Shown: one piece after another, positions 344 to 50,675 of the stretch
Layout: the number at the start of each line of letters is the position of its first letter
Numbering within the stretch: position 1 is the stretch's first letter
Origin: Xestospongia muta
Lineage: Eukaryota > Porifera > Demospongiae > Haplosclerida > Petrosiidae
Direction: 5' to 3'
Length of the DNA stretch: 64,000 bases
Assembly (NCBI GenBank): GCA_963693285.1
Contig: OY848917.1
Coordinates: 33,181,245 to 33,245,244, forward strand
Notes under the pieces: model-generated
The model's database searches: none
The model's input: the letters and a program-made list of their open reading frames with translations, nothing else
Told to the model about the DNA's origin: nothing
Position numbers and translations under genes: made by a program

Positions 344-3300
344 TAGGTATATTAGTTGAAGTAGGTGTTGGATAGCAACCAATATCATCAATATCACTAC
401 AACAATCATTCCAATAGTGACAGTACTCATCACAATAACATCCTTTATGGGAACATGCAGGTGATCGTGACAATTTACAACATCCAGTATAATTGAGATT
501 AAGTGCCAGACATGAACCTAAAATAAACATATAAACAACATGAATTAATTTGTAGTACTCATTTACCAAGTGGAGTAATAGTTGGTGTAGTTGATGGTGT
601 GGTTGTTGTGTCTGCTGGAGTAGCAGCAGTTGGTGTAGTTGATGATGTGATTGCTGTGTCTGCTGGAGTAGCGACAGTTGGTCTAGCTGATGGTTTGATT
701 GCTGTGTCTGCTGGAGTAGCGACAGTTGGTCTAGCTGATGGTTTGATTGCTGTGTCAGCTGGAGTAGCGACAGTTGGTCTAGTTGATGGTTTGATTGCTG
801 TGTCTGCTGGAGTAGGAACAGTTGGTCTAGCTGATGGTTTGATTTCTGTGTCTGCTGGAGTAGGAACAGTTGGTCTAGCTGATGGGTTGATTGCTGTGTC
901 TGCTGGAGTAGCAAGAGTTGGTCTAGCTGATGGGTTGATTGCTGTGTCTGCTGGAGTAGGAACAGTTGGTCTAGCTGATGGGTTGATTGCTGTGTCTGCT
1001 GGAGTAGGAACAGTTGGTCTAGCTGATGGGTTGATTTCTGTGTCTGCTGGAGTAGGAACAGTTGGTCTAGCTGATGGGTTGATTGCTGTGTCTGCTGGAG
1101 TAGGAACAGTTGGTCTAGCTGATGGTTTGATTGCTGTGTCTGCTGGAGTAGCAAGAGTTGGTCTAGCTGATGGTTTGATTGCTGTGTCTGCTGGAGTAGC
1201 AAGAGTTGGTCTAGCTGATGGTTTGATTGCTGTGTCTGCTGGAGTAGGAACAGTTGGTCTAGCTGATGGTTTGATTGCTGTGTCTGCTGGAGTAGCAAGA
1301 GTTGGTCTAGCTGATGGGTTGATTGCTGTGTCTGCTGGAGTAGGAACAGTTGGTCTAGCTGATGGGTTGATTGCTGTGTCTGCTGGAGTAGCAAGAGTTG
1401 GTCTAGCTGATGGGTTGATTGCTGTGTCTGCTGGAGTAGGAACAGTTGGTCTAGCTGATGGTTTGATTGCTGTGTCTGCTGGAGTAGCAAGAGTTGGTCT
1501 AGCTGATGGTTTGATTGCTGTGTCTGCTGGAGTAGCAAGAGTTGGTCTAGCTGATGGTTTGATTGCTGTGTCTGCTGGAGTAGCAAGAGTTGGTCTAGCT
1601 GATGGTTTGATTGCTGTGTCTGCTGGAGTAGCAAGAGTTGGTCTAGCTGATGGTTTGATTGCTGTGTCTGCTGGAGTAGGAACAGTTGGTCTAGCTGATG
1701 GTTTGATTGCTGTGTCTGCTGGAGTAGGAACAGTTGGTCTAGCTGATGGTTTGATTGCTGTGTCTGCTGGAGTAGGAACAGTTGGTCTAGCTGATGGTTT
1801 GATTGCTGTGTCTGCTGGAGTAGCAAGAGTTGGTCTAGCTGATGGTTTGATTGCTGTGTCTGCTGGAGTAGCAAGAGTTGGTCTAGCTGATGGTTTGATT
1901 GCTGTGTCTGCTGGAGTAGCAAGAGTTGGTCTAGCTGATGGTTTGATTGCTGTGTCTGCTGGAGTAGCAAGAGTTGGTCTAGCTGATGGGTTGATTGCTG
2001 TGTCTGCTGGAGTAGGAACAGTTGGTCTAGCTGATGGGTTGATTGCTGTGTCTGCTGGAGTAGGAACAGTTGGTGTAGCTGATGGGTTGATTGCTGTGTC
2101 TGCTGGAGTAGGAACAGTTGGTGTAGCTGATGGTTTGATTGCTGTGTCTGCTGGAGTAGGAACAGTTGGTGTAGCTGATGGTTTGATTGCTGTGTCTGCT
2201 GGAGTAGGAACAGTTGGTGTAGCTGATGGTTTGATTGCTGTGTCTGCTGGAGTAGGAACAGTTGTTGTAGCTGATGGTTTGATTGCTGTGTCTGCTGGAG
2301 TAGGAACAGTTGTTGTAGCTGATGGTTTGATTGCTGTGTCTGCTGGAGTAGGAACAGTTGGTGTAGCTGATGGTTTGATTGCTGTGTCTGCTGGAGTAGA
2401 AACAGTTGGTGTAGCTGATGGTTTGATTGCTGTGTCTGCTGGAGTAGGAACAGTTGGTCTAGCTGATGGTTTGATTGCTGTGTCTGCTGGAGTAGGAACA
2501 GTTGGTCTAGCTGATGGTTTGATTGCTGTGTCTGCTGGAGTAGGAACAGTTGGTCTAGCTGATGGTTTGATTGCTGTGTCTGCTGGAGTAGGAACAGTTG
2601 GTGTAGTTGATGGTTTGATTGTTATGTCTACATTGGAATGATAATAAAAATTAATGAAAATTGTTATATCATGCAAACTATTAATTATTATCACATCAAT
2701 AATTGTATATTATTACTAACTAATATATATATACTCCTAAAAAAATTTACAAATCAGAAATATCAACCATTATAATGCCATTAAAACACTAAATTATATT
2801 TGCTGTTGATAATGACTTCAAATCATTTCTTGAAGTTTTCATGTGGTGGCAAACTAACATCACTTAGCTACCTTGCTAAATCAGAATTATTTCAAAGCAA
2901 GAAACTTAGGATTTTGTTTTCATTTGAATTTCTGCTTTGTTTTGAACAATCATTATCAGTAGATAATTTTGTAACAACCAAAAGTATTATTGAATGGGAA
3001 TAGCATGTACTCTAAGATTCTCTCTACCTCCTAGATAAAAGCCAAACACTGTAAAAATTGATTGGTTGTATTAACTAATACATGGCTATACAGGTTGTAT
3101 ATGAAAAATGTAAACATAATACTATATTTGATTACTGATGTACTATGAGATTAATGGTTTTAATACAAACAGGAGGAGATGATGTATCTGAAGTAACAAA
3201 GTCAATTAAGTCAAAATAACACCTTTTTATACCTTCATATCCATAGGGAATCATGCTCAGTCCTCCAGTATATGTATAGCCAACAAAAAATAATGAACCA

Positions 3301-5661
3301 AATATCAGTGGACAGAGTCTGGCATTTAGATCTTCATAATTGATATTGTAAATATTACTTGAAAGGGAATAACCAGCCAATACATAACCAACTACACTAC
3401 TACCATTGTCACTATTAATTGTAGTCCATGTTTCAGAACCAAGTGATACACCGTTTAATAGTACTTGGGAAGAATTGAAGTCTGACGAAATAACAGCTAA
3501 GTTCATATATTTTGTAGACGACAAAATATTGATAGCAGGAAATACAGTACTAGTCACATAATGTTGGAATGGAGGAACAATCACTACAGCAGGATCACTA
3601 GCAATAAAACCTCCAACCAGATTAAAAAGTTGTCCCAAAGAAAACTGTGCTACAAGAATGGGATTATTTGCATAAATATGACAAATCTTTCGACCATTGA
3701 TCAGTTGTGATGCTGTTGCATCTTTCTGTAGTGATGATATCTTATATTTGATCTTTGATTGACAAGATATAATTATGTTAGTATTTTGTTGAGAGCTGAC
3801 AAACTTCAATAGATAGCCTGACTTATAAGTAGAGAAAGGACTTATAAGGAATGAATTACCCCAAGATGCTGATGGAGGTATCTGCTCACCAAGAAAGTCA
3901 GCACCAGCTGTTCCTTGTGTTGGTATTTCACCACATGTGTGTCCTGAGTAGACAGCAATTGGTTTGTTTGAAACAACTTTTGAACCAGTTAGATCATTTG
4001 TTGAGTCAATTAAAAATGTTTGGAGATAGCCCAGTTGAATAGTTACAGAATTTCCTCCTGTTATCGTGATATTAGTTCCAGTGGGGCTCAGATCATAAGG
4101 GATAGTTATGTTAACTGTAGGAGTTATAGTAATAATAGTATCATTGTTGGCAGATACAAGGAGGAGAGTACTAAATGAATCAACAATATTACTACCAGTG
4201 GAAATGGCATAGTAAACATATTCATTGACAGGATATCCCCAGGTAGGATAACTCTGATAGACACCTGCTGTTTGACTACCACCACCATTACCAACAACAA
4301 AGACTGATATTTTGCTACATGATCCTGTAGACACTATGATACCTTTCTCTCGGTCGGTCCTATGATCAACAGTATTACTCAAATCTAAAATGACAGTTGT
4401 TGACGTATTAGAAGTAACTGATCCACTTGATATAATTCCTGCTAAGTTTTTGACTGTAAAATTGACTGGTTCATTTTCTGTAGTAGTAATAATAAGTGAA
4501 AGATTCTTTTTGTCTTTAAAAGGTAATGCTCCAATAATATGAGAACTTGCTGATGTACTCCAGCCATCTAAGTATGATATTATGCCATTACTTATAATTA
4601 TTTTATTATAACCTACATTAATTACTAGATAATTAAATGCAAATTATAGTTGAGAATATAATTTTAAGGTTATTCAAAGTCACAATACAATATGTGTATA
4701 TGAGGTCATATTAGGAAATATACTGTACAGTGAAAACATACAAGTACTTCAATACTTAGTGTATACAGTAATGTTATTATATAGTAGTCACTGGGCAGTG
4801 GTTACTACTGTTGATGTTATGTTAGGTCACTATCATCTAATCAATTCATATTCTACTATAGACGCATGTTTTAAAGTTGCTATAGTAGCATTAAATAGTA
4901 TTAGTGGTCAATGTTAATAGTATTATTGTTATAATAGTAGTAGATAATATACTATAAGCTATCATTTCTGACTACCATAGCTTTTTTAGAGATCACATGA
5001 TCTATGTAGGCCAGTACATAATTTTTTTACAATCATTTTATATGATATTATTGCCAGACTGGAAATAGGTCAAGTTATGTTTTGTTTATCAATAAATTTT
5101 ATGAGAGAATTTATACCTAACAAGATAAAAATAAAATTCTATTATTGTATTATCTTTAATAAGAGTCACAGCACCTACTTCAACTATAATACTTATGTCA
5201 AAATGTAACACCACCCATTTTTATTACCTATCATTTGTTTACTTATGTATTAATTGGTATACATTTAGTTATAACCAGGTATATCTACCTTCAACTGTTA
5301 TGAGAATACTTGAGTTCTCAGTTGCTGAGTTGGTATAGATTACTTTACAGATATATGTTCCACTGTCAGACTGAGTCACTTTAGTTAAATTCAATAGTAG
5401 AGGACTTGAATTTGAAGTAGATATAACAGCTCCATTAATATCTAACCATTGATAGGAGAGAACATTACCACTACCTTCACATTTAGCTAATAGATCATTG
5501 CCGTGTAATACTATAACTGATCCTGATGGTGTTATCACTGGACGACCTAGTACAAATGATAATCCAGTTATAATAATAATAATAGTAATAATTGTATTAC
5601 CTTGTGTTGTTACTAATGTAGACAACAAAACGAGAACTAAGACAACAACAGAGAGAGACAT
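344..5661 (-). CDS. Gene A: secreted Ig / IgGFc-binding-like / mucin / SMB protein (3' end outside window)
   Basis: Four exons join in phase 1: 5661-5289, 4612-3233, 2627-567 and 517-344. Exon 1 encodes a hydrophobic signal peptide (residues about 1-20) and one Ig-like domain with the usual first Cys, Trp (YQWLD) and DSGTYIC motif. Exon 2 (460 codons) resembles the IgGFc-binding N-terminal domain: VVSNKPIAVYSGHTCGEIP, VPPFQHYVTS and a closing YTYTGGLSMIPYGYEG. Exon 3 is a Pro/Thr/Ser-rich mucin-like array of about 687 codons. Exon 4 is a somatomedin B-like domain with the CYCDEYCHYWNDCCSD core. Each internal exon is a multiple of three, and the last ends at a GTAAGA donor, so coding continues left of base 1. 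The product is probably an extracellular, O-glycosylated adhesive or mucus protein. If exon 2 were not spliced at 3233 it would reach a stop at 3132. Domain families are known; the joined model is my inference. Confidence 0.72.
567..2627 (-). repeat. 48-bp coding minisatellite, about 43 units (mucin-like exon of gene A)
   Basis: Units of 48 bp encode the 16-residue repeat PTVPTPADTAIKPSAR. Variants include LATPADTAIKPSAR, TEINPSAR and TAINPSAR. Because 48 is divisible by three, several frames on both strands stay open across the array. The real frame is fixed by phase-1 splicing to the IgGFc-like exon (join at 3233/2627) and to the SMB exon (join at 567/517). The variants are mosaic rather than random along the array, as expected from unequal exchange and gene conversion. 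The repeat is Thr/Ser/Pro-rich, typical of O-glycosylated stalks. Confidence 0.9.
2628..3232 (-). other. Intron of gene A, made of family-wide intron repeats
   Basis: No exon is needed here. Bases about 2800-3000 (gataatgacttcaaatcatt onward, with a following block rich in ttgtaacaaccaaaagtatt) recur upstream of the Pro/Thr exons of genes C, D, E and F (about 25.3, 33.45-34.25, 42.85 and 48.25 kb). Bases about 3050-3140 are a partial copy of the ACTGTAAAAATTGATTGGTT inverted-repeat element. Confidence 0.6.
4613..5288. other. AT-rich intron 1 of gene A
   Basis: This lies between the Ig exon and the IgGFc-like exon. I see no further exon and no known repeat in it. Confidence 0.5.
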
Positions 5662-6589: not shown

Positions 6590-7275
6590 AACTAAAATAG
6601 CTAAACTAATTTTTTTTTCATTGATTCTGTTCCTCTTTCTTTCGTTGCAGTTTTTCCTTAATATCATCAGGAAAGAACTTAGCGAATGTTGTCTCGGATA
6701 ATGTGCCACTTTTCATCATCTATTCTCTACAATCAAGACATCTACAGGAGAGCTTGGAGACTTTTGTTTAGAATATTAAAGAAATTCACTATTGTGAAAA
6801 CTGGATTTTTCCAAAGAAGTTCCTCCAGAATTATCTGCTCCATCATCACATTGTTCTTTGCTTAGGAGAAAATTTTGATAAAGAAAATTGACTGACATTT
6901 TTGCCTGTGACATTAAGAACCCAATGTTTCCAAGTGCTTTTTACACGAAGACAGTGCATTATAAAAATAAAAAGACCATGAAAGGAAGTGATGATCACAA
7001 ACAATGCAGCAAACAAGTCTCATACTGTCTTATTAGTATAGATATCTTGAGTAGCAAACAGTCCAATACTCCATCCAAAACCAAAAAATATTGACAATGT
7101 TGTAAATATAACAAGCTGTTGGCAAACAAAAGATTTTTTGCCTTTATCATCCTTAGATTTAACATCCTTTCAATTATAGAGTAAACGTTTTTATATGAGA
7201 GAAAGAAATATGATGGTAAACACCACCCAATTAAAGATATAGATGATCAGAAATGGCACTACCATACCAACATAA
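6590..7275 (-). pseudogene. Adhesion GPCR remnant (TM5-TM7 and tail), copy 1
   Basis: Read on the minus strand from about 7270 leftwards. The translation gives a TM5-like MVVPFLIIYIFNWVVF, then stops and frameshifts. It then shows DDKGKKSFVCQQLVIFTTLS, GFGWSIGLFATQDI and FAALFVIITSFHGLFIFIMH, followed by CLRVK and WKHWVLNVTGK. This TM6-TM7 pattern, with the FHGLFIFIMHC signature before the tail, is typical of adhesion (class B2) GPCRs. Several in-frame stops make it non-functional as read. The extracellular part and TM1-TM4 are absent. A better-preserved tail lies in the paralogous copy at 8.8-9.5 kb. Confidence 0.72.
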
Positions 7276-7295
7276 TATGGAACATTAAAAGCACT

Positions 7296-8823: not shown

Positions 8824-9510
8824 CTAATTTTTGCTGATTCTGTTCCTCTTCTCTTTGGAGTTGTACTTTTCATCCACATCATCAGGAAAGGACATAGTGA
8901 ACGTTGCTTCAAATAAAGAACCACTTTTACTCTCCACATCTCTATTCTCTACAGTTAAGATTTTTACAGGAAAGCTTGTAGCCTTTTGTTTACCATTGTC
9001 ATTTATAGATTTTCTCAAAACGTGCCTCCAGAATTCTGTTCCAATATTGTATTGCTTTTGGTGCTCAAGACAAAATAATAAATTGATTGATATCTTTGCC
9101 TGTGACATTAAAAACCTATTGTTTCCAAGTGTTTCTTACTTCCTTTGAACAAAGACAGTGCATTACGAAAATGAAAATACCATGAAAGGCAGTGATGATC
9201 ACAAACAATCCAGCAAACAAGTCTCATACTGTCTTATTAGTATAGATATCTTGAGTAACAAACAGTCCAATATATATATTCATCCCAAACCAAAGAAAAT
9301 TGACAATGTTGTAATTGATTATAACAAGCTGTTGTCAAACAAAAGATTTTTTGCCTTTATAATCCTTTGATATGAAATTCTTCAAATTTGATTGCAAGTT
9401 TGTTTGGATTAGAGAAACCAATATGAACAAAATAAGATGGTAAACACCACCCAATTAAAAATATAGGTGATCAGAAATGGTACCACCATACTAACAAAAT
9501 ATGGTACACT
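8824..9510 (-). pseudogene. Adhesion GPCR remnant (TM5-TM7 and cytoplasmic tail), copy 2
   Basis: Paralogue of 6590-7275, read leftwards. It shows a TM5-like VSMVVPFLITYIFNWVVF and a decayed TM6. TM7 (VIITAFHGIFIFVMHC, then LCSKEVR) is interrupted by stops. An open tail of 94 codons follows at 9108-8824 (MSQAKISINLLFCLEHQKQY onward, ending at a stop). The tail is the longest intact segment. It faces the integrin tail in convergent orientation. Confidence 0.66.
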
Positions 9511-11290
9511 AAAGCACGACTACTAATACATGAAGTCGGTTTATCACAGTTCCAACACAGAGCTGGCTCAGATTTCTTCACATACTGAGTACTAAGTTGA
9601 GACAACTCTTCAGAAAATAGCAGAATCTTGGTACATTTACTTCGGTGTGTCCATTTCTGTAGCCAATTCGACTGTTTTCATTTTCTGTGCCAGATTACAA
9701 ACCAATTCCAATGATTTGGGCATTTCTTACATTAGTTGGAGCTGTATGGTCGACATGACTAATTACTTGATGATGCTCATAAGGAGTCCACAAAGCCCTT
9801 TCACCAGAGAATTTCACAAAGAGATGCAGCTGATTCTGTGTGCTCTTTTGTAATGAAACTGTCACTCTAACTCATTATTTTGAGAATCATGTATAGCTAT
9901 ATGTTGGCTTACATCTGGTCACATTCAACTGTGTTTGTTGAAAAGATAAATTCTTGGCTTAATAATAAAGATGATAATGCATATGCTTGTATAGATTTAA
10001 GGAAGTGTATGAATGAAGACATCCCAATTGAGTACCAATAGAAAGAACTATCTATGAACTGATGATACGTTTTTGGTCTGATTATAAAAGAGGGAACAGA
10101 TATAGTAACATTTATATGTGTAATGGAGCCTACTTCTTGTATGGGAAGACTTTGTGGTCTTCAGTCTATAATGTGAGAAATAGTTTCATCAGACTCCCAA
10201 AGTCAGACAAAGGGCTTTAAGTTGTTGAATCTGAATCTCCATTAAAACATATTCAGATCCTACAATCAGAATAATGTTGAGTGGTAGAATTATTATGCAA
10301 GATTGCAGATTGAAACTTTCTAGCCTGTAATAAAGAGTCAACCACAATTTACTATAATAAGGACTTAATTATATTTCTTCATTATTCCAATATGAACTGT
10401 GTTTAACTAACACATACTTTCGTATTAATATGAGGATTGATCAACTTAAACTAGTATGGCTGCACAGCAAAGAAATTGAGAGGCTTAACTTTTTTTACAG
10501 CTGAGTATTTGTTAATATTTCACATGTTGATTTAACATGTGTGTGTTAAAATCAGAACATCCAAACATGTTCATTTTTGCATTTTTTGTTGTAAGAAAAC
10601 AGCAAAGAGTCAAAATTAGGAAAACCTACCAAGATATTCCATCAAATAAAACTTTACATCAGTTTTTGTGCACTCACATATATTTCATAATTCTTTTTCT
10701 AATTATTATATGTTCAACTTACTTTATAGTAATAATTGAGTTTGAAATTGTCATCACCCCTTCTGTTATGTTTCAGTTGATATGTAATTGCCGCAATCTT
10801 ATGTCTGTAATAACAAAACGATTGTTTGTTTTTGCGAACCTTACAATACCCAATAACTTATTGAAACATTGATTGTTGCATGTATTTATATCTCTTACTT
10901 TCTTACTCACACAGTGAAAGCTATTAGAGTCACTATACTACTATACTCAGTTGGTTGTAAGTGACTTTTAGATGCTAAATCTTTGGAAACACTGAGTTTA
11001 TAAGCCATACTCACTAGTTTTGTAAGAAAGATGTATTGCTAATTAAATGCATTTACATTGCTAATTCTATTCTAATTTAGTTTATTGCCTATTATAGTCT
11101 GGAACTCAAAACAATGAAAACACTGGATAAAAGAAGCATCCCATGAGAGTAATGCATGTTTACTGAAGACAAGTCAGAAACACTATATAATTATGAAAAA
11201 AGAAGAGCAATTGCAGGATACTCAATCTATTAATGAAGACATCTTTTATATAATCATTATAATTCTATAAGTAGAAAATACGGAGTATAG
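9511..11290. other. No supported gene
   Basis: AT-rich. Short open stretches exist (for example 10537-10872, plus) but have no recognisable domain, no splice context and no paralogue in the window. Around 9.55-10.25 kb, short readable stretches on either strand could be old transposon or gene debris. I cannot name it. Confidence 0.4.
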
Positions 11291-13198: not shown

Positions 13199-16100
13199 CT
13201 ATTTTGAATAGCAACCAATATCAGCAATATCACTACAACAATCATTCCATTTGTGACAGTACTCATCACAATGGCATCCTTTATGGGAACATACAGGTGA
13301 TAGTGACAATTTACAACATCCAGAATAATTTAGATTAAGTGCCAGACATGACCCTATAGTAAACATATAAACAACATGAATTAATTTGTAGTACTCATTT
13401 ACCAAGTGGAGTAATAGTTGGTGTAGTTGATGGTTTGATTGTTGTGTCTATTGGAATAGCAACAGTTTGTGTAGTTGATGGTTTGTTTGTTGTGTCTTTT
13501 GGAGTAGCAACAGTTGGTGTAGTTGATGGTTTCATTGTTGTGTCTGCTGGAGTAGGAACAGTTGGTGTACTTGATGGTTTGATTGTTGTGTCTGCTGGAG
13601 TACGAACAGTTGGTGTAGTTGATGGTTGGATTGTTTTTCCTACATTAGAATGGTAATAAAATTAATGACCATTGTTACATTATGCAAATGATAATTATCA
13701 TCACATCAGTAATTGCATATTATAGTTATTAATGAATTTATTTAACACTAACACTATGTGTCTCACTGATAACGTTTGAATCTTCTCACTAAGGCTCAGT
13801 AATGTTAAGTTACTTTAAAGAAACAATACAGGAGTAATACAAGGACTGCACACTTGTATATACCAATATCAAGAAATATTGAATAACAATTATTAAAGCA
13901 TAAAGTATTTTGTACGTCTACATTATTATATATGTACTTTATAAATATTATTGTCATTGACATGTCAACAAAATGCTACTATATTCTTAACAATGAATCA
14001 AGTTTTAAGTTATCATATTACATGTGAAGCTAGTCATAGCAGGTCAATTATCAGAAATTAAATCACATAGAATAAATTTCCCAAAATGGGAAGTGTCTTA
14101 TAACATAACAAACAGGTTAGTAGAAAATTCTGTTATCAAAGTGTAAGTAATATTGCATGTCAACAGTTAATAAAATTCAGGTTCAGTTACATACAAACTG
14201 CTATACTTTATTTTCTTCTTGCCATTTTTGTGCAAAAATTGTAAAAATGACAGACACTTAACTTGTGTAGGCATTCTTATCATAAATTAAAAAATAATAA
14301 TGAATAATAGTCACCACACCAATATGAATAATTAATTAGATCCTAAATTATTTTGTTTGCTCTACGTTTGCCTTTATATTTCATTTTCTAGTGAACAATG
14401 ATGTATTGTATGAACTAATGAATTATCTTACTAGGTATATCAGTTGAAGTTGGTATTGGATAGCAACTTATATTAGCTATATCACTACAACAATCATTCC
14501 ATTTGTGACAGTATTTATCACAACTGCATTCTTCATTGGAACATACAGTTGACAATGACCAATCACAACATCCAGTATAACCAAGATTAAGTGCCAGACA
14601 TGAGCCTAAAATAGACATATAAACAATTTGATTTAGTTTGTAGCACTTATTTACCATGTGCAATAACAGTTGGTGTAGTTGATGGTGTGATTGTAGTGCC
14701 TACATTAGAATGATAATATAAATTAATGACAATTGTTATATTATGCAAGTTATAATTATCATCACATCAGTAATTGCATATTATAACTATCAATAAATTT
14801 CTTTAACTCTAACAGAAATCACTATGATTATGTGTTTCAATGATAATGTTTGAATCTTCTTACTAAAGCTCAGTAAAGTTAAGTTACTTTAAAGAAACAA
14901 TACAGGAGTAATACAAGGACTGCACACTTGTAGCAATATCAAGAAATATTGAATAACAATTAGTAAAGCATAAAGTATTATGTATATCTACATTATTATA
15001 TATGTACTTTATAAATATTATTGTCATTGACATGTCAAAAAATGCTACTATATTCTTAACAATGAGTCAAGATTTGAGTTATCATATTACATGTGAAGCT
15101 ACTCATAGGTCACTTATCAGAAATTATATCACATAGAATAAATTTGCCAAATTAGGAAGTGTCTTATAACATAACAAACAGGTTAGTAGAAAACTCTGTT
15201 ATAAAAGTGTAAGCAATATTGCATGTCAACAGTTAATAAAAGTCATGTTCAGTTACATACAAACTGCTATACTTTATTTTCTTCTTGGTCTTATTGTGCA
15301 AAAATTGTCAAAATGACAGACATTTTGCTTGTTTAGGCATTCTTATCATAAATTAAAAATAATAATGAATAATAATCACCACACCAATATGAATAATTAA
15401 TTAGATCCTAAATTATTGTGTATACTCTATTTTTGCCATTTATATTTTATTTTCTAGCGAACAATGATGTATTGTATGAACTAATGATTTGTCATACTAG
15501 GTATTGGATAGCAACTTATATTAGCTATATCACTACAACAATCATTCCATTTGTGACAGTATATATCACAACTGCATTCTTTATTGGAGCATACAGGTGA
15601 CAATGACCAATCACAACATCCACTATAACCAAGATTAAGTGCCAGACATGAACCTAAAATGAACATATAAACAACTTGATTTAGTTTGTAGCACTTATTT
15701 ACCATGTGCAATAACAGTTGGTGTAGTTGATGGTTTCATTGTTATGTCTGTTGGAGTAACAGTTGTTGTAGTTGATGGTTTGATTGGTGTGTCTGTTGGT
15801 GTAGCAACAGTTGGTGTAGTTGATGGTTTCGTTGTTGTGTCTGCTGGAGTAACAGTTGTTGTAGTTGATGGTTTGATTGGTGTGACTGTTGGAGTAGCAA
15901 CAGTTAATGTAGTTGATGGATTGAATGTTGGGTCTAATATACGAATAGTAAAAAAATAATATAAAGAGATAATTATCACTTCAGTAATTGTATATTTTCA
16001 CTACTTAATTATATAAAGTCATAGAAAAATTTTCTAAATCAGAATTGTCTGAACTAAAGTTCATATTGTGCTACTACAATAAATAGGAAACGACTCACTA

Positions 16101-17814: not shown

Positions 17815-18180
17815 AATTGCTTATTAACTAATAATGTAGATCTATGTGAAATTGGCTGTAATGTTAGTCTGAGGGATACCTTTTGCTGCCGAAAAAATCT
17901 AGAGGATACAGTATATATTTTAATTTGATTGATAGAAGGCATGGTCCTAGCACTAAGATATGACTTTTTGGTAGAACCATTTTTATAATGAGATGTCTCA
18001 AGAGCATTAGTTAGTCTACTAACTGACTCATAGTTCCCACAAAGTTAGTATTAAAACTCTCATACTGGTTAGTAATAGACATATCGATAGTTTCCATTCA
18101 TTCAATTATCCATCTATATATCATTCTATTATAACCTCAATAACTCATCCAAATAGCCAGATTTATCAGTCATAAGTCAC

Positions 18181-19200: not shown

Positions 19201-19224
19201 TTTCTTTGGTCAAAGATGTATCAA

Positions 19225-32370: not shown

Positions 32371-35300
32371 TTACTTGGTGTGGTTGGTGCAATTTATATT
32401 AGCTATATCACTACAACAATCATTCCATTTGTAACAGTACTCATCACAATGGCATCCTTTATGGGAACATACAGGTGATCGTGACAATTTACAACATCCA
32501 GAATAATTGAGATTAAGTGCCAGACATGACCCTAAAATAAACATATAAACAACATGAATTAATTTGTAGTACTCATATACCAGGTGAAGTAGTTGGTGTA
32601 GTTGGTATTGGATAGCAACTTATATTAGCTATATCACTACAACAATCATTCCATTTGTGACAGTATTTATCGCAACTGCAATCTTTGTTGGTACATTGAG
32701 GTGACTTTGACCAATCACAACATCCACTATAACCAAGATTAAGTGCCAGACATGAACCTAAAACGAACATATGGACAACTTGATTTAGTTTGTAGCACTT
32801 ATTTACCAGATGAAGTAATAGTTGGTGTAGTTGATGGTTTCATTGTTGTGTTTGTTGGAGTAAAAGTTGTTGTAGTTGATGGTTCGATTGTTGTGTCTGT
32901 TGGAGTAACAGTTGTTGTAGTTGATGGTTTCATTGTTGTGTCTGTTGTAGTAATAGTTGTTGTAGTTGATGTTTTGATTGTTGTGTCTGTTGGAGTAACA
33001 GTTGTTGTAGTTGATGGTTTCATTGTTGTGTCTGTTGTAGTAATAGTTGTTGTAGTTGATGTTTTGATTGTTGTGTCTGTTGGAGTAACAGTTGTTGTAG
33101 TTGATGGTTTGATTGTTGTGTCTGTTGGAGTAACAGTTGCTGTAGTTAATGGTTTCATTGTTGTGTCTGTTGTAGTAACAGTTGTTGCAGTTGATGTTTT
33201 GATTGTTGTGTCTGTTGGAGTAGTAACAGTTGGTGTAGTTGATGGTTGGATTGTTGGGTCTATATAAGAATAGCAATAAAATAATATAAAAAGATAATTA
33301 TGACATCAGTAATTGTATATTATTGCTACTTAATATATAAAGTCATAGAAAAATTTTCTAAATCAGAATTATCAAATATTATTATGCCATTAAAAACACA
33401 TAGGAATTGATCACTTGCAGAGTGAACTCATTGTGAACTGCATCACCTGTTAATCATTGAGTTATTTTTACTATTGGTAATAACATAGACCATATCTTGT
33501 TTATTAAGTTTTCATGTGGTGGCAAGCTAACATCACTTAGCTACCTCAGGAGCAATGGTTCTACAAACTATACAATGGTGCTTTTTAATGGCATTGCTAT
33601 ATATATAATCATAATTATTTCAAAGCAGGAAACTCCAGATTTTGTCTGAACTAAAGTTCATATTGTGCTACTACAATAATATAAATAGGAAATGATTCAC
33701 TAGTGAACTACATCAACTGTTAGTCATTGAGTTATACACTGTAAAAATTGATTCATTGATTTAACCAATATATTGTTATACAGGTTGTATGTAGCAAACT
33801 TAGTATGATGTAAAAGTAAAGTAAATATAACTCTGTTTTGATTACTTTTGTACTACTGTTTATGTAGCTAATAGTACATCACTAATCAAAGCATAAGCAT
33901 TTACTTTACTTTTACATCATACTAAGTTTGATACATACAACCTGTGTAACAATATATTGGTTAAATCAACGAATCAATTTTTATAGTGTATTTACTGTTG
34001 ATAATGACCTCAGACCATTTCTTGTTTATTAATTTTCACATGATGGCAAAATTGGAAATGCAAGCTAACATTACTTAGCTACTTCTGGAGCAAGGGTTCC
34101 ACAAACTATACAATGGTGCTTTTAATGGCATTACTAATTATAATTATTTCAAACCAAGAAACTCAAGATTTTTTTCCATTTGAGTTTCTACTTTGTTTTA
34201 ACAATCATTATCAGTAGATAATTTGTAACAACCAAAAGTATTATTGAAAGGGAATAGCACATGAATATGTACTATAGGATTCTCTCTAACTCTTAGATAT
34301 AAGCCAAAGATCCTTATGTAAAAATAATTATATATCAAATTAAGTAAATTCTTCATCACTCTATTGCTTTGATAACTATAGTAACTGTTGTTTTGACACT
34401 TACTGATAACTTCTAAAAAAGGAAATATAAAGGCTGTGTCATAACAATAAAAATAACAACTGTTGTAATACTATTACATCTAGAAACATAACCATCTGTC
34501 AAACTACTTTGTCTAGCTAGTGAGATCTTAAAGAGAATCTTAATAGCTCTGATAATTAACAATGAGCTATCAAGTATAATCAATGTAATTAAGCATGACA
34601 TGAACGTATATGTATAATATCATACTAGTTGTATTTATTATAATAGAGTGGTTGTAACATGTTCATAGTCACTTGTCTTGAGAATGAATATGCCATGATG
34701 AAACTATGGTAACCAAGGTTTGGTTGAAACTATATAAAATTTTAAAGTTTACATCTAGTATCATTGTTATTCCATATTATTGCAATGTGAGTTCTTCTTT
34801 TATTTGGAAATATCTATAACACTTTACTAGCTTAGTAGTAACAATTGCAAAGAAAAGTATATGTAGTGATATAGACAACTTACCAGTACAATTAGTACCC
34901 ATATATCCAGTACCACTACAACAATTACATGTGTAATTATCAGGGGGAGATGACAATATACATGATCCTCCATTTTGACAAGGTTTATCTCGTAGACAGA
35001 TATTAATTAGATTACATCCATTACATGTAGTGTTAGCAACTTCACCAGGGCCACAGGTATAATCACATTCAATATAGTATAGGATCAATGTATTATATAC
35101 ATATATAATGCCTTTCATAAACAATCAATTCATAGGACAATAGTAGACAAAACAGTATTACATGTATATGTTTGTAGCAGACAGAAAGTATTCATTAAGC
35201 AAACTGTAAGTAAACATTTTTTTACAGTTTGCTACATGCAACTTTTATAACCATATTTTAGTTTTAATAAAACAACCAGTCAATTCATCACTCTATTGCT

Positions 35301-37461
35301 TTGATAACTATAGTAACTGTTGTTTTGACAATTACTGATAACTTCTAAAAAAGGAAATATAAGGGCTGTGTCATAACAATAAAAATAACAACAGTTGTAA
35401 CACTGTTATATCTAAAAAGATAACCATCTGTCAAACTACTTAGTCTAGCTAGTGAGACTTTAAGAAAAACTTATAGCTCTGATAATTAACAACAAGCTAT
35501 CAAATATAATCAATGTAATTAAGCATGACATGAACTTATAGGTTGGACATGTTTCATAATATCATACTGGTTGTATTAATTATATTAGAGTGGTTGTAAC
35601 TTCACTTGTCTTGAGAATGAATATGCCAAAAACACAATAAACTGTTTTGATTAGTACTCACTAGTAACTAGTGAGTCATCTCTCTTTCATCAAAATAGAA
35701 CTGACTGAGCATGATATTCCTAGTAGTGTTATAAATAAACCCCTTCAAAGTGTCTCTGTAGCTGTGTTGTCTGAACTAAAGTTAATACACTGTAAAAAAT
35801 GATGGTTGATTTAACCATCATTTGGTTATACAAGTTGCAATTCTAAACTTATCTTTGTTAAAAAAGTAATGAAAGTACTGTTTTCATTACTAACATACTA
35901 CTGTTTATCTAGCTACAAAACAATCAATCATACATCAGTAATCAAAATAGTATTTTGTTTACATTTTACATTACAACCTGTATAATCATGTATTAGTTAA
36001 ATCAACCAATCAATATTTACGATGTATTGTGCTACTATGATGAAAAGAAGATAACTCACTAGTCACTGCACTATTTGTTAAGTAATCATCTCTCAAATGA
36101 TAATACAACTAACTTTTGTGGTTTGCTTTTAGCAGAAATGATTATTTTTTGTGACCTTTTTCAGGAAACTTGAGCTTTATGTAAATATTGTTGTATAGTT
36201 CAATCTTCAAACTTTTAATTAGTATATGCATAAAAACAAAAAATAGTACTGTATAGGAGTCACAATATTAGAAACATTGACCTTTTCTTCATTGACTTTT
36301 ATAGTAAACTGTTTAACAATAGGACTGGAAGGTACCCCAGAAATCACATCACATTATTAGTGAATATTAAATACCTCAGACCTTTACTTGAAAAGGTTTA
36401 TTAGACTACATATCACATTAATGAAACTATGGTAACCAAGGTTTGGTTGAAATTATGTTTTTTTAATTCTACACCTAAATTTATTGTTATTAAGCATTAT
36501 TACAATGTGAGTTGTTGTTTTCATTTTGAATACCTCTAAACCTTCCTGGCTTATTTTACTAGCTTAGTAGTAACAAATGCAAAGAAAAAGTTTATGTAGT
36601 AATATAGACAACTTACCAGTACAATTAGTACCCATATATCCAGTACAACTACAATTACATGTGTAATTGTCAGGGGGAGATAACAATATACATGATCCTC
36701 CATTTTGACAAGGTTTATCTCGTAGACAAATATCAGTCAGATTACATCCATTACATGTAGCATTAGCAACTTCACCAGGACCACAGGTATAGTTACATTC
36801 TATATAGTATAGGATCAATGTATTAACTACATATACTAGTTTTAACTTACTACATGTAAAGTTGGTATTAGCACTGGCAGCATAGTTAGTTGGACATGAT
36901 GTAGTACACATATTATCAAGACCAAAGTAAGGACAACAGTCATTACTAGATGATACACAACTTCCTTGTCCCATATTCCTGCAGGTTGCACTACACTCTA
37001 TTTATATGTTATTAATAATATCAACAATAATATCACATTAACTAACCAAAACAATGGTTAGAATCACCCAAAGAATTTTCAGGTACACAAGTAAAACAAT
37101 CTCTTCTTTTCCTTGGATTTGAGGGAGGAGTTTCAAGACCATCATTAGTTATTGCACTCCATGAACCACTTAAACACTCTAGCTGAAAGTGTTGTGTTTG
37201 TTGAGGTTCTCCATTTTTAGGAGTGAATGTAGCTATTATAGATACTCTACGATAATTATCTTTAGTTGATCCTTGAGCAAGACAAGTATAATTATGTGAT
37301 AATACAGTTGGATTATATGGTGCTCCTCCTGAATCTGCATTTTGAAGTAGATCTGTCAATCCTCTCTTTATATCAGCTACTGTAGAGAGAGGACATTGTC
37401 CAATAGCTAATGGCAGTATTACTGTCAGTACAACTGTTAAAAACAGAGGTATCTTCATCAC
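32371..37461 (-). CDS. Gene D: secreted Cys-rich / EGF / long Thr stalk / SMB x2 protein, 511 residues
   Basis: Six exons: 37461-37047, 36997-36851, 36799-36617, 33259-32807, 32757-32581 and 32531-32371, totalling 1536 nt in one frame. The head matches genes B, C and E. The first donor is GTTAGT rather than GTAAGT. The stalk is 151 codons, the longest in the B-F group, built of TTTTVTPTDTTIKPS-type repeats with Ile/Thr variants. Two SMB exons follow: the first has CDKYCHKWNDCCSD, and the second has CDEYCYKWNDCCSD and ends NHTK-stop after a small rearrangement of its linker. An extra EGF-like exon at 35069-34884 is probably skipped because its acceptor is lost. Predicted secreted; function unknown. 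Confidence 0.73.
33735..33990. mobile_element. ACTGTAAAAATTG foldback MITE, best copy
   Basis: Almost the whole element is an inverted repeat: TACACTGTAAAAATTGATTC at the left mirrors GAATCAATTTTTATAGTGTA at the right. Arms of about 120 bp include the ttagtatgatgtaaaagtaa block and its inverse. TA ends suggest a Tc1/mariner-type target. It lies in the intron before the Pro/Thr exon of gene D. Confidence 0.85.
34413..34620 (-). repeat. Small hydrophobic reading-frame repeat (copy in gene D intron)
   Basis: Encodes MSCLITLIILDSSLLIIRAI, a Lys/Arg loop and VVIFIVMTQPLYFLF-stop. Five copies occur, one each in the EGF-to-stalk introns of C, E and F and two in D (35340-35540 and here). See 48806-48994. 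Confidence 0.5.
34884..35069 (-). pseudogene. Extra EGF-like exon inside gene D with lost splice acceptor
   Basis: 186 nt, matching the 183-nt EGF exon (ECDYTCGPGEVANTTCNGC, then KPCQNGGSCILSS). There is an extra Cys codon (CNCCSG), and the acceptor reads TATTG where the paralogues have TATAG. The donor is intact. It is left over from an internal duplication that also copied the small hydrophobic repeat. Confidence 0.75.
35786..36026. mobile_element. ACTGTAAAAATTG foldback MITE, copy 4
   Basis: Closely related to 26576-26814 and at the equivalent intron position, so duplicated together with the gene. Half-size copies lie near 35130-35290 and 39610-39765. Confidence 0.7.
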
Positions 37462-40200: not shown

Positions 40201-40227
40201 CAAGAGCATCGATTTTTCTCTGTCCTC

Positions 40228-42305: not shown

Positions 42306-42334
42306 TCTATGTATTATAATAATGATTTATTTTT

Positions 42335-42505
42335 AAGTTAACTCGAATTGAAAACAATAAAACGTATAATATAAAACAAGAAAACAATAGAAAAAAATTT
42401 GAAAACAATAGAAAAAGTAGAAAACATAAAACAAAAGAGAAGAATGGAAAAAAAGAAAAAAAATTGAAAAAATATAAACAATAGAAAACAAAAAACATAA
42501 AGTCA
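42335..42505. repeat. A-rich AAAACAATAGAAAA low-complexity tract, copy 1
   Basis: Imperfect repeats of gaaaacaatagaaaa. Opposite-strand reading frames here are Phe/Leu-rich artefacts. Duplicated at 47710-47880. Confidence 0.8.
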
Positions 42506-42511
42506 ATTTGT

Positions 42512-45148
42512 TCAACACTCTCTTGCTTGAATAGCTATAGTTACTATAGTTTCAACAGTTACTATCGCTTGGATAGCTATAGTTACTGTAGTTGATGGTT
42601 TGATTGTTGTGACTGTTGGAGTACCAACAGTTGGTGTAGTTGATGGTTTAATTGTTGTGTCTGTTGCAGTAGCAGCAGTTGGTATAGTTGATGGTTTGAT
42701 TGTTGGGTCTATATAAGAATAGTAATAAAATAATATAAAGGAATTATCACATCAGTAATTGTATATTATTACTACTTATTACATAAACAGGTAGAAACAT
42801 TTCTTAATCAAAAATATTAACTACTATTATACTGTGAACTGCATTGCCTTTCAATCATTGAATTATATTAGCTATTGATAATGACTTCAGATCATTTCTT
42901 TTTTATTACATTTTCATGTGGTGGCAAACTAACATCACTTAGCTACTACAGGAGCAAGGGTTGTACAAACTATACAATGGTGCTTTGAATGGCATTGCTA
43001 ATCATAATTATTTCAAAGCAAGGAACTCCAAATTTTGTTTCCATTTGAATTTCTGCTTTGTTTTAATAATTATTATTAGTAAATATTTTTGTAACAACCA
43101 ACAGTATTATAGAAAGGGAATAGCACATAAATGTGTACTTTAAGATTTTCTCTACCTCCTTGCAACAAGTCTTTGTAAAGATGCTTATTTAACAATTATA
43201 ATATCACATAAAGTAAATTCTTTATCATTCTATTGCTTGAATAGCTATAGCTGCTATGGTTTAGACAATTACTATAGTAACTGTTGTTTTGACACTTACT
43301 GATAATTTCTAAAAAAGGAAATATTAGGGCTGTATCATAACAATAAAATAGCAATTGCTGTAACAGTGTTATACCTAAAACATAACCGATCTTAAAGAGA
43401 ATCTTAATAGCTCTGATAACAAGCTATCAAGTATAATCAATGTAATTAAGCATGACATGAACCTATAGGTTGGACAGATTGTATAATATCATACTGGTTG
43501 TATTAATTATATTAGAGTGGTTGTAACTTCACTTGTCTTGAGAATGATTATGCCAAAAACACAATAAACTGTTATGATTAGTACTCACTAGTGACTAGTG
43601 AGTCATCTCTTTTTCATCAAAATAGAACTGACTGAACATAATATTCCTAGTATTATTATAAATAAATCCCTTTAAAGTGTCGCTGTAGCTGCCTTAAAAT
43701 GGTGGCTTGTCTGAACTAAAGTTCATATTGTGCTACTATGATGAAAAGGAGACAACAAACTAGTAACTACACTATTCGTTAAGCAATCGTCTCTCAAATG
43801 ATAATACAACTAACTTTTGTGGTTTGCTTTAAACAGAAATGATTATTTTTTGTGACTTTTTCGAAAAACTTGAGCTTTATGTGATTATCATTGTACAGTT
43901 CATACTTCAAACTTTCAATTAGTATATGCATAAAAACAATATCAGAAACATTGAGCTTTTCTTCATTGACTTCATAGTAAACTGTTTAACAATAGGACTG
44001 GAAGGTACACATGAAAAGGTCTATTAGACTATATATCACATTAATAAAATTATATTAACCTAGGTTTGGTTAGAACTATACAAATTTTTAAGTCTATATC
44101 TAGTATTATTGTTATTAAGTATTATTGCAATGTAAATCATTGTTTTAATTAAGAATATCTCTAACACTTTACTAGCTTAGTAGTAACAATTGCTAAGAGA
44201 AAGTATACGTAGTAATATAGACAACTTACCAGTACAATTAGTACCCATATATCCAGTACCACTACAATCACATGAATAATTATCAGGGGGAGATAACAAT
44301 ATACATGATCCTCCATTTTGACAAGGTTTATCTCGTAGACAGATATCAATCAGATTACATCCATTACATGTAGCATTAGCAACTTCACCAGGACCACAGG
44401 TATAGTTACATTCTATATAGTATAGGATCAATGTATTAACTACATATATTAGTTTACTTACCACATGTAAAGTTGGTATTAGCACTGGCAACATAGTTAG
44501 TTGGACATGATGTAGTACACATATTATCAAGACCAAAGTAAGGACAACAGACTACAGGATAATATGATATACATCTTCCTGATCCATAGTTACAAGCAGA
44601 GTTACAAGCTATATTAAAGAAATATTTCATTAATAGATGATACACAACTTCCTTGTCCCATATTCCTGTAGGTTGCACTACACTCTATTTATATGCTATT
44701 AATAATGTCAACAATAATATTATGCTAACGTACCTAAACAATGGTTAGAATCACCAAAAAGATTGTCAGGTACACAAGTAAAACAATCTCTTCTTTCCAT
44801 TGGATTTGAGGGAGGAGTTTCAAGACCATCATTAGTTACTGCACTCCATGTAGCACTTGAACACTGTAGCTGAAAGTGTTGTGTTTGTTGAGGTTCTCCA
44901 TTTTTAGGAGTAAATATAGCTATAATAGATACTTTACGATAAGTATCTTTAGTTGATCCTTGAGCAAGACAAGTATACTGATGTGATGATAAAGTTGGAT
45001 CATATGGTGCTCCTCCTGTATCTGCATTTTGAAGTAGATCTGCTAATCCACCCTCGATATCAGCTACTGTAGGGAGAGGACATTGTCCAATAGCTAATGG
45101 CAGTATTACTATCAGTACAACTGTTAAGAATAGAGATATCTTCATCAC
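42512..45148 (-). CDS. Gene E: secreted Cys-rich / EGF protein with short stalk and no SMB, 313 residues
   Basis: Exons 45148-44734, 44608-44462, 44412-44230 and 42708-42512 total 942 nt in frame. The signal peptide and exon 1 are as in the paralogues. Exon 2 is a variant: ACNSACNYGSGRCISYYPVV replaces the usual ATCRNMGQGSC half, yet it is also 147 nt. A truncated copy of the usual half lies just upstream (44684-44640). The EGF exon is intact. The stalk exon has three Pro/Thr units, then decays into TIAIQAIVTVETIVTIAIQ and a stop. Whether the gene is still expressed is uncertain. The tail may be a degenerate terminus, or an SMB exon may have been lost through the rearrangement at 42.1-42.5 kb. 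Confidence 0.6.
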
Positions 45149-47025: not shown

Positions 47026-47029
47026 ATTT

Positions 47030-47675: not shown

Positions 47676-47709
47676 TCTATGTATTATAAAAATAATTTAT
47701 TTTTAAGTT

Positions 47710-47880
47710 AACTCGAATTGAAAACAATAAAAAGTATAATGGAAAACAAGAAAACAATAGAAAAAATTTGAAAACAATAGAAAAAGTAGAAAACATAAAA
47801 CAAAAGAGAAAAATGAAAAAAAAAGAAAACAATAGAAAAAATTTTGGAAAAAATAAAAACAAAAGAAACAAAAAACATAA
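47710..47880. repeat. A-rich low-complexity tract, copy 2
   Basis: Near-identical to 42335-42505. Confidence 0.8.
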
Positions 47881-47890
47881 AGTCAATTGT

Positions 47891-50675
47891 TCAACACCCT
47901 CTTGCTTGAATAGCTATAGTTACTATAGTTTCAACAGTTACTATCGCTTGGATAGCTATAGTTACTGTAGTTGATGGTTTGATTGTTGTGACTGTTGGAG
48001 TACCAACAGTTGGTGTAGTTGATGGTTTAATTGTTGTGTCTGTTGCAGTAGCAGCAGTTGGTATAGTTGATGGTTTGATTGTTGGGTCTATATAAGAATA
48101 GTAATAAAATAATATAAAGGAATTATCACATCAGTAATTGTATATTATTACTACTTATTACATAAACAGGTAGAAACATTTCTGAATCAAAAATATTAAC
48201 TACTATTATGCTGTGAATTGCATTGCCTTTTTATTCTTGAATTATATTAGCTATTGATAATGACTTCACATCATTTTTCATGTGGTGGCAAACTAACATC
48301 ACTTAGCTACTACAGGAGCAAAATTTGTACAAACTATACTATGGTGCTTTTTAATGGCATTGCTAATCATAGTTATTTTAAAGCAAGGAACTTAAAATTT
48401 TGTTTCCATTTGAGTTTCTGCTTTGTTTTAATAATTATTATTAGTAAATATTTTGTAACGACCAACAATATTATAGAAAGGGAATAGCACATTAACATGT
48501 ACTTTAGGATTCTCTCTACCTTCTTGCAACAAGTCTTTGTAAAGATGCTTATTTAACTATTATATATCACATAAAGAAAATTCTTCATCATTCTATTACT
48601 TCGATAGCTATAGCTACTATGGTTTAGACAATTACTATAGTAACTGTTGTTTTGACACTTACTGATAATTTCTAAAAAAGGAAATATTAGGGCTGTATTA
48701 TAACAGTACAGTGAATATCTTTATTTAACTATTATATATCACAGAAAGTTAATTCTTCATCACTCTATTGCTATGACAGCTATAGTTACTATAATTTTGA
48801 CACTTCTAAAAAAGGAAAAATAAAGGCTGTGTCATAACAATAAAAATAGCAACTGCTATAACACTGTTACATCTAGACACATAACAATCTGTCAAACTAC
48901 TTTGTCTAGCTAGTGAGATCTTAAAGAGAATCTTATTAGCTCTGATAATTAACGACAAGCTATCAAGTATAATCAATGTAATTAAGCATGACATGAACCT
49001 ATAGGTTGGATATATTTCATAATATCATACTTGTTGTATTAATTATATTAGAGTGGTTGTAACTTCACTTGTCTTGAGAATAAATATGCCAAAAACAAAA
49101 TAAACAGTTATGATTAGTACTCACGAGTAACTAGTGAGTCATCTCTTTTTCATCAAAATAGAACTGACTGAACATGATATTCCTAGTATTGTTATAAATA
49201 AATCCCTTTAAAGTGTCACTGTAGCTGCCTTAAGATGGTGGCTTGTCTGAACTAAAGTTCATTTTGTGCTACTATGATGAAAAGGAGATAACAAACTAGT
49301 AACTACACTATTTGTTAAGCAATCGTCTCTCAAATGATAATATAAGTAACTTTTGTGGTTTGCTTTTAACAGAAATGATTATTTTTTGTGACCTTTTTCA
49401 GGAAACTTAAGCTTTATGTGATTATCATTGTACAGTTCATACTTCAAACTTTCAATTAGTATATGCATGAAAACAATAAATGGTACTGTATACATTGAGC
49501 TTTTCTTAATTGACTTCTATAGTAAACTGTTTAACAATACGACAGGAATGTACACAGAAATCACATCAAATTATTAGTGAATATGAAATACCTCAGACCT
49601 TTATATGAAAAGGTCCATTAGACTACATATCACATTAATGAAACTATGATAACCAAGGTTTGCTTGAAACTATGTTATTAAGTCTACACCTAGATTTATT
49701 GTTATTAAGTATTATTACAATGGGAGTTGTTGTTTTAATTTTGAATACCTCTAAAACTTCCTGGCTTATTTTACTAGCTTAGTAATAACAAATGCAAAGA
49801 AAAAGTGTATGTAGTAATATAGACGACTTACCAGTACAATTAGTACCCATATATCCAGTACCACTACAATTACATGAATAATTATCAGGGTAAGATAACA
49901 ATATACATAATTCTCCATTTTGACAAGGTTTATCTCGTAGACAAATATCAATCAGATTACATCCATTACATGTAGCATTAGCAACTTCACCAGTACCACA
50001 GGTATAATCACATTGAATATAGTATAGGATCAATGTATTAACTCTATATATTAGTTTTAACTTACCACATGTAAAGTTGGTATTAGCATTGGCAGTATAG
50101 TTAGTTGGACATGATGTAGTACACATATTATCAAGACCAAAGTAAGGACAACAGTCACTTCTAGATGATACACAACTTCCTTGTCCCATATTCCTGCAGG
50201 TTGCACTACACTCTATTTATATGTTATTAATAATATCAACAATAATATTATGTTAACTTACCTAAACAATGGTTAGAATCACCAAAAAGATTTTCAGGTA
50301 CACAACTAAAACAATCTCTTCTTTTCTTTGGATTTGAGGGAGGAGTAGCAAAACCATCATTAGTTACTGCATCCCATGTACCACTTGAACACTGTAGCTG
50401 AAAGTGTTGTGCTTGTTGAGGTTGTCCATTTTAGGAGTAAATGTAGCTATAATAGATACTCTATGATAAGTATCTTTAGTTGATCCTTGAGCAAGACAAG
50501 TATAATTATGTGATGATACAGTTGGATTATATGGTGCTCCTTCTGCATCTGCATTTTGAAGTAGATCTGTCAATCCTCTCTCTATATCAGCTACTGTAGG
50601 GAGAGGACATTGTCCAATAGCTAATGGCAGTATTACTATCAGTACAACTGTTAAAAACAGAGGTATCTTCATCAC
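47891..50675 (-). pseudogene. Gene F: family member broken by a frameshift and a lost splice acceptor
   Basis: Exon-like blocks 50675-50262, 50212-50066, 50014-49832 and 48087-47891. Exon 1 is 414 nt rather than 415: one T is missing near 50430 (PKMDNL in place of PKNGEP), which shifts the frame. The EGF exon has lost its acceptor (TATTC where the paralogues have TATAG), although the short intron can be read through in frame. The stalk exon is near-identical to that of gene E and ends in the same stop, with no SMB. Probably a recent duplicate of gene E that has decayed. Confidence 0.78.
48806..48994 (-). repeat. Small hydrophobic reading-frame repeat (clearest copy)
   Basis: 62 codons: MSCLITLIILDSLSLIIRAN, then KILFKISLARQSSLTD, then SVIAVAIFIVMTQPLFFLF-stop. 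Two hydrophobic stretches lie around a basic loop, preceded by an acceptor-like CCTATAG. Related copies: about 26110-26305, 34413-34620, 35340-35540 and 43315-43460, all in the same intron position and some with indels. The frame does not match phase 1 of the EGF exon, so a coding role is doubtful. I do not recognise the sequence. Confidence 0.4.

Follow-up and report, generated by a model that had tools for sequence, protein, structure and literature searches.

Probable secreted-type offshoots of an adhesion GPCR family, joined to a common tail within introns, in a tandem gene cluster of a sponge

The window analysed here, a stretch of 64,000 nucleotides from the sponge Xestospongia muta (contig C1, 33181245-33245244), carries a tandem cluster of genes in which exons homologous to parts of an adhesion G protein-coupled receptor (GPCR) ectodomain precede a common tail. 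Exon families were located in the window by tblastn with exon translations, and all lie on the minus strand; gene models A-D were built from the DNA using splice context and assembled frames, and genome searches covered 158 Mb in 28 contigs. We refer to a novel Cys-rich exon as HEAD, to a second Cys-rich exon as CYS2, to the Pro/Thr exon as PT and to the somatomedin-B-like exon as SMB-like. As described in an earlier sequence-only reading of this DNA, gene A (signal peptide, immunoglobulin (Ig) and IgGFc exons) and genes B-D (HEAD, CYS2 and EGF-like exons) run into homologous PT and SMB-like exons, and the family has multiplied in tandem. AG/GT and cumulative phase 1 are present at every internal junction of the assembled genes and all internal exons are divisible by three, also as described; the four frames contain no internal stops, but the lengths previously given for B, C and D (1743, 1428 and 1536 nt) are each 3 nt too many (see table).

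Gene A has internal exons of 258, 1380 and 2061 nt. Because a 54-nt intron (5600-5547) separates the Ig exon from the signal-peptide exon, the Ig exon is symmetrical by itself; it has 37 matches in the genome. In Pfam, the head of gene A matches IgGFc_binding (PF17517) with 150.1 bits (cut-off 25.6, E 1.1e-43) and Ig_2 over the cut-off (E 4.3e-8), and these two earlier labels are thus borne out, whereas SMB stays below the cut-off and the EGF-like exon finds no Pfam family. Besides the signal peptide, gene A encodes other hydrophobic windows, of which the last is at about residue 434, within the IgGFc part. A 48-bp coding repeat at 580-2629 (42.7 copies, 97% matches) likely constitutes a length-variable mucin-like stretch. 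A near twin of gene A (L074/L040) is located at C1:33.146-33.151 Mb.

Genes B, C and D have signal peptides and no other strongly hydrophobic stretch, including at the C-terminus, in agreement with the proposal that their products are secreted. Their internal exons measure 147, 183, 231, 156, 45, 174 and 237 nt (B), 147, 183, 237, 174 and 120 nt (C) and 147, 183, 453 and 177 nt (D), and the EGF-PT introns 0.66, 2.3 and 3.4 kb, respectively. Short forms are open as well, with 1146 nt in B (ending in the first SMB-like exon), 1170 nt in C and 1380 nt in D. Two additional HEAD-CYS2-EGF-PT-SMB copies (L010+L060 and L011+L053) lie just outside the window, and the HEAD exon has 80 matches in the genome. 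The joined HEAD-CYS2-EGF sequence matches no Pfam family at E<=1 and the isolated EGF-like exon none at E<=0.1; the EGF label rests on the motif, and a database relative that covers 29% of the query (P0101) carries precomputed PF00008/PF12661. A structure prediction for HEAD was not usable (pLDDT 57.5, best Foldseek E 0.096).

For the SMB-like exon, the genome gives at least 150 matches (150 of 497 candidates were scored). This exon contains a phase-1 donor just before its stop, 17 nt before the stop-codon end in A, in two exons of B and in one of C, and 8 nt before it in D; therefore, the exon could be internal or terminal, and the chained PT-SMB-PT-SMB forms depend on this donor. Pfam Somatomedin_B (PF01033; cut-off 23.1 bits) ranks first but below the cut-off for 22 of 24 scanned exons (the first list of 28 minus four dropped rows), with a best E of 0.046 and an E of 1.5 for the copy of gene A; a genome search with the Somatomedin_B family gave six matches, none of them in the window. 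The predicted structure (pLDDT 43.5) was not usable for fold comparison. The best solved-structure match is vitronectin (E 0.015 with a single sequence, 0.011 with a profile), and by eye the C-x-C-x3-C-x5-CC spacing of its somatomedin-B domain (PDB 1oc0 and others) is similar in the SMB-like exon; unlike the vitronectin domain, SMB-like exons have extra N-terminal cysteines and those of A-D lack RGD. Among the matches listed, SMB-like exons are numerous at C1 23.7-26.2 Mb, and C2, C4, C7, C12 and the window have further ones; a PT-SMB tail on C7 (L072) sits, by eye, behind a series of Ig-like exons. Among the listed matches (80 HEAD, 150 scored SMB-like), the two exon types occur less than 100 kb apart only at C1:33.14-33.23 Mb (by eye). 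Separately, a diverged IgGFc-like exon is found near SMB-like exons at L070 (C1 24.15 Mb) and L073 (C2 11.6 Mb), both with another Cys-rich head and, in L073, Kunitz-like exons (this head and the Kunitz-like exons by eye); IgGFc and SMB may have been paired in more than one event.

Table. Features of the cluster, with positions in the window
Feature	Position	Strand	Remarks
Gene A, whole	327..5661	-	3951 nt, GT/AG, phase 1, no internal stop
Gene A, head exons	signal peptide 5661-5601; Ig 5546-5289; IgGFc 4612-3233	-	
Gene A, tail exons	Pro/Thr 2627-567; SMB-like with stop 517-327	-	latent donor at 344
Gene B, whole	13199..17434	-	1740 nt open frame, GT/AG, phase 1
Gene B, head	HEAD 17434-17023; CYS2 16973-16827; EGF-like 16777-16595	-	
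Gene B, tail 1	PT 15933-15703; SMB-like 15653-15498	-	
Gene B, tail 2	PT 14699-14655; SMB-like 14605-14432	-	
Gene B, tail 3	PT 13639-13403; SMB-like 13353-13199	-	
Gene C, whole	23548..28236	-	1425 nt open frame
Gene C, head	HEAD 28236-27825; CYS2 27775-27629; EGF-like 27580-27398	-	
Gene C, tail	PT 25098-24862; SMB-like 24812-24639; PT 23868-23749; SMB-like 23699-23548	-	
Gene D, whole	32371..37458	-	1533 nt open frame
Gene D, head	HEAD 37458-37047; CYS2 36997-36851; EGF-like 36799-36617	-	
Gene D, tail	PT 33259-32807; SMB-like 32757-32581; SMB-like 32531-32371	-	
Gene D, extra EGF-like copy	35073-34882	-	without preceding AG
Copy E	42500..45145	-	HEAD, altered CYS2, EGF-like, PT
Copy F	47880..50672	-	HEAD with frameshift, CYS2, EGF-like without preceding AG, PT
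Join J1 (gene A)	3159..3232	-	nt 1-74 of IgGFc-PT intron match adhesion-GPCR intron after IgGFc
J1 switch stretch	3033..3158	-	nt 75-200 of intron, with dispersed repeat; other copies in window have both orientations
Join J2 (gene B)	16534..16594	-	first 61 nt of EGF-PT intron match adhesion-GPCR EGF-Ig intron
Broken adhesion-GPCR 7TM/C-tail remnant upstream of A	6624..7292	-	tblastn E 2e-75, 61% identity, stops (10 in genome search)
Second broken 7TM/C-tail remnant upstream of A	8866..9513	-	tblastn E 3e-33 and 5e-25, with stops
Broken IgGFc remnant upstream of gene B head	18176..18522	-	tblastn
Further IgGFc remnants	28431-28577, 29824-30168, 37825-38173, 42215-42331, 47493-47683, 51052-51658		

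The relationship between the two heads emerges from a survey of 30 loci, those of the 30 best among the 80 HEAD matches. In 15 of them HEAD-CYS2-EGF is followed, no more than 350 nt away, by an Ig match (10 near full length, five fragments), and such receptor-type heads are found on C1, C5 and C14. Two overlapping locus pairs, L025+L068 on C1, ~60 kb from the window, and L016+L069 on C5, were extended, and both contain, in order, HEAD-CYS2-EGF-Ig-IgGFc, Ig-like exons, an HRM-like piece, pieces of the GAIN region and seven-transmembrane (7TM) exons; a Ser/Thr-rich exon and the GPS motif read most clearly in L068. In Pfam, a piece of L068 matches GPS (58.8 bits, cut-off 22.5, E 7.9e-16), two pieces of L069 match 7tm_2 (28.4 and 28.8 bits, cut-off 20.6, E 1.2e-6 and 9e-7) and two of six Ig-like pieces tested, both from L069, match Ig_3 over the cut-off (1.6e-18 and 2.2e-14). 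With GPS and 7tm_2 over the cut-off, we class L025+L068 and L016+L069 as adhesion GPCRs; the 7TM exon of this receptor type has 127 matches in the genome. Because the heads of A and of B-D are consecutive exons in two receptors of the same genome, they are not unrelated, as had been supposed, but neighbouring segments of one adhesion-GPCR ectodomain. In total, the earlier observation is partly confirmed and its interpretation partly supported. At C5:1.201-1.248 Mb (L015, L021, L030, L031, L033, L035 and L036), units of HEAD-CYS2-EGF recur every ~1.2 kb, frequently accompanied by a short Ig fragment, and look as if many head modules were present in one gene.

The introns between the heads and the tail record three joins. 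In gene A (J1), the beginning of the IgGFc-PT intron matches the intron after IgGFc in L068 (80.5%, E 7e-14), and in a control search of the window and the retrieved loci the only matches to nt 1-74 were A, its near twin and L068; from ~nt 189 onward the gene A intron corresponds to the C7 intron that precedes PT. In gene B (J2), the beginning of the EGF-PT intron is 87% identical to the receptor EGF-Ig intron of L025 and 82% to that of L016. All five copies B-F match the receptor intron from nt 1 to 56-65 with an identical switch point, 13 of the 15 receptor-type loci match the J2 piece, and the control search with nt 1-61 returned HEAD-family loci only. The last part of the B-F EGF-PT intron matches the PT intron of C7, where the gene has Ig-like exons (by eye) before PT-SMB. 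A search of the B-F introns gave no remnant of an Ig or IgGFc exon (best E 0.97) and no receptor piece better than E 0.093. The third join (J3) belongs to a signal peptide-Ig-PT-SMB form at ~C1:33.176 Mb (L067), in which nt 1-186/189 correspond to the Ig-IgGFc intron of gene A and to that of four receptor loci, and the remainder matches gene A's PT intron (96%); this pattern is what one would expect if an A-like gene had undergone an internal deletion. With symmetrical phase-1 exons and joins inside introns, the cluster has the properties of class 1-1 shuffled modules, and the intron comparison adds backing to the earlier proposal of phase-1 exon shuffling onto a common tail. Copies of a dispersed repeat lie in and near cluster introns in both orientations (~3033-3158, 25406-25622, 25800-25890, 26719-26826, 33736-33989, 35787-36020 and 39590-39761), and this repeat may have made ectopic recombination easier.

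Two broken 7TM remnants are located upstream of gene A and another one upstream of its near twin, suggesting that the locus once held receptors. Besides these remnants upstream of A, a search of the whole window for receptor sequence gave only chance-level and Ser/Thr-rich matches. GPS and a secretin-type 7TM region in the same gene are absent from A-D, which would thus be derivatives of adhesion GPCRs by homology and not members of that class. IgGFc remnants upstream of the heads had suggested that a HEAD cassette was inserted between IgGFc and PT; this idea was dropped, given that the L025 receptor has such remnants, too. An unrooted HEAD tree of 28 rows, from which E and F were left out, groups four secreted-type copies (98/98).

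Between A and its twin, the first 342 codons of IgGFc differ by 16 nonsynonymous and 25 synonymous changes, a ratio of nonsynonymous to synonymous divergence (dN/dS) of 0.19 (p ~8e-8 if 22% of sites are synonymous), which points to purifying selection on this part; the second part (118 codons, 4 changes) is nearly identical. Against the two receptors, IgGFc of A gives dN/dS of 0.61 and 0.64. For HEAD, pairwise point estimates, made without a significance test on 11 copies with F left out, exceed 1 in 13/15 pairs among the six secreted-type copies, in 2/10 pairs of receptor copies and in 9/30 mixed pairs. Given that introns of C and D diverge by ~10%, more than the HEAD dN of 0.075, relaxed constraint is as good a reading of HEAD as positive selection. 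The earlier description of the family as actively diversifying is therefore hinted at by HEAD only, while IgGFc of A is mostly under purifying selection.

Combining the exon order, the receptor homology and the intron joins, we consider it likely that the cluster is made up of secreted offshoots of an adhesion-GPCR family that arose by intronic recombination of ectodomain parts with a PT-SMB-like tail; at the DNA level, intronic exon shuffling as the source of such secreted-type offshoots appears well supported. In this model, the parent would have the order HEAD (with signal peptide)-CYS2-EGF-like-Ig-IgGFc-Ser/Thr-rich-several Ig-HRM-like-GPS-7TM, and in a receptor array on C1 recombination within phase-1 introns would have joined different parts of this ectodomain to a tail that other genes carry elsewhere in the genome. 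The products would include at least three forms: (i) HEAD-CYS2-EGF-PT-SMB (B, C, D and the two copies just outside the window, as well as E and F, in which no SMB exon was found), (ii) signal peptide-Ig-IgGFc-PT-SMB (A and its near twin), and (iii) signal peptide-Ig-PT-SMB (one neighbour). After splicing and secretion, both predicted from the gene models, the offshoots are probably soluble or mucus-bound binders; they may share the ligands of the outer receptor domains, their Pro/Thr and Cys-rich tail would keep them in mucus or matrix, and they might act as decoys in solution, as opsonin-like binders or as adhesive linkers.

Several observations weigh against this model. Join J1 relies on one receptor, L068, the other receptor (L069) matching just 7 nt beyond the exon, and the dispersed repeat at the switch leaves its exact crossing point undefined. 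L017 and L019 have no match to the J2 piece, and ~500 nt after the J2 switch are common to the family with no clear source, giving a single weak hit in a receptor Ig-IgGFc intron (L025, E 6e-6) and short hits at two other places in the window. On the receptor side, the HRM match is below the Pfam cut-off and the GAIN-region piece finds no GAIN family in Pfam. A protein search gave 101 matches, none of which covers more than 75% of the joined head. The HEAD tree leaves gene B unresolved and, because it is unrooted, does not prove the direction of change. Part of the cluster appears to be decaying, since an SMB-like exon was sought and not found in copy E, copy F looks broken and is probably defective (here, too, the search for an SMB-like exon found none), and the twin of A has a frame change within its IgGFc exon, between the two parts compared above.

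How far do these observations favour other explanations? The remnants of 7TM and IgGFc, the frameshift in F, the missing SMB exon of E, the frame change in the twin and HEAD dN/dS values near or above 1 would all be expected if the window were a decaying receptor array whose joined exons are rarely or never used. Set against this, A-D are open across up to nine exons with splice sites kept and IgGFc of A and its twin shows purifying selection; HEAD is also free of stops in B, C, D, E, L010 and L011 (the frameshifted F left out), although the neutral chance of this, 0.20-0.41 per copy for five copies compared with C, is not small and the copies are not independent. We regard decay of the whole array as unlikely. 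We think it slightly less likely still that the direction was the reverse, with small secreted proteins coming first and adhesion GPCRs capturing heads from them: the intron joins are symmetrical and the unrooted tree permits it, but among the listed matches PT-SMB-tailed heads occur only at C1:33.14-33.23 Mb while receptor-type heads are on C1, C5 and C14, and broken 7TM remnants adjoin A and its twin. Because of these remnants and the spread of receptor-type heads, we favor the receptor-to-secreted direction.

Alternatively, the PT-SMB exons of B-D may be separate genes that are not joined to HEAD-CYS2-EGF, as the intervening introns and models drawn from DNA alone would allow. This is very unlikely given that the exons share strand and matching phase, that their order recurs in B, C, D and the two outside copies, and that searches of the B-D introns with the exon families gave nothing at E<=0.01 except the EGF-like copy without AG in D. 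Least plausible of all is the earlier proposal of an allorecognition- or mucus-related family in which recombination put two unrelated heads on one tail; it accounts for the shared tail and the phase-1 symmetry, but receptors of this genome carry the two heads in direct succession.

Evidence for exon shuffling usually comes from the order of domains. In this cluster, introns still mark where receptor DNA ends and tail-gene DNA starts, and parents and offshoots are present within one genome; if expressed, the cluster would offer a testable example of receptor ectodomains turned into secreted ligand-binding proteins in an animal. More tentatively, and with some doubt on our part, we suggest that ectodomain parts became dedicated, tandemly amplifying secreted binders via at least three intron joins to one cassette, in which a run-on/stop switch in the SMB-like exon would set the number of tail units.

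The window holds other sequences as well. On the plus strand, integrin beta is present as genes or fragments at 7185-7679 and 28840-28980 (both by eye), 40180-41786, 45544-46805 and 52484-54772 (Pfam Integrin_beta 3.6e-74 at 52484, 3.8e-18 at 40180 and 1.1e-5 at 45544), in head-to-head orientation to minus-strand copies, which gives the impression that pairs were duplicated jointly. Together with the adhesion-GPCR and Ig matches, integrin beta marks the DNA as that of an animal. Between B and C, 18895-20842 (minus strand) has open frames with sub-threshold matches to PHD-finger and Ulp1-type peptidase and a frame that by eye resembles a retroelement integrase end, and is perhaps a mobile element. 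An open frame at 62764-63225 (plus strand) has adenylate-kinase/AAA-type matches just under the Pfam cut-off.

Among known systems, FCGBP-type mucus proteins combine an IgGFc_binding domain with a Pro/Thr-rich stretch, as does gene A; the Pfam matches of the gene A head, the part scanned, include no vWD-type family. The human receptor-family gene EMR4/ADGRE4 lost its membrane part through mutation in one gene, unlike the window genes, for which we propose fusion to another tail and tandem amplification. Our literature search found no paper combining an adhesion GPCR with IgGFc and none on soluble or secreted adhesion GPCRs through exon shuffling; domain shuffling in adhesion GPCRs as such is an accepted idea in the available text of one source (PMC12716839). 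According to the parts available of a study on Amphimedon queenslandica, its adhesion GPCRs are expanded (40) and have long N-termini with EGF, Ig and HRM in addition to GPS and 7tm_2 (PMC4302439). The receptors described here are alike in these respects; the domain-figure legend of that study names neither IgGFc nor SMB, and the window genes differ in lacking GPS and 7TM. For Halichondria panicea, somatomedin-B-like as well as IgGFc-binding domains appear in the legend of a receptor-repertoire figure that includes GPCRs, and receptors of all classes are described as membrane-bound and also cytosolic and/or secreted (PMC8242945), so that related architectures may already have been seen; the available text of that source names no carrier for these domains and describes no secreted offshoots or shared tail. 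In mammals, soluble ectodomains of adhesion GPCRs arise from splicing or cleavage, as the accessible part of one source describes (PMC6667449). The sponge genes resemble these soluble N-terminal fragments in that a receptor ectodomain is present without the 7TM part and differ from them in that they are separate genes to which another tail has been added.

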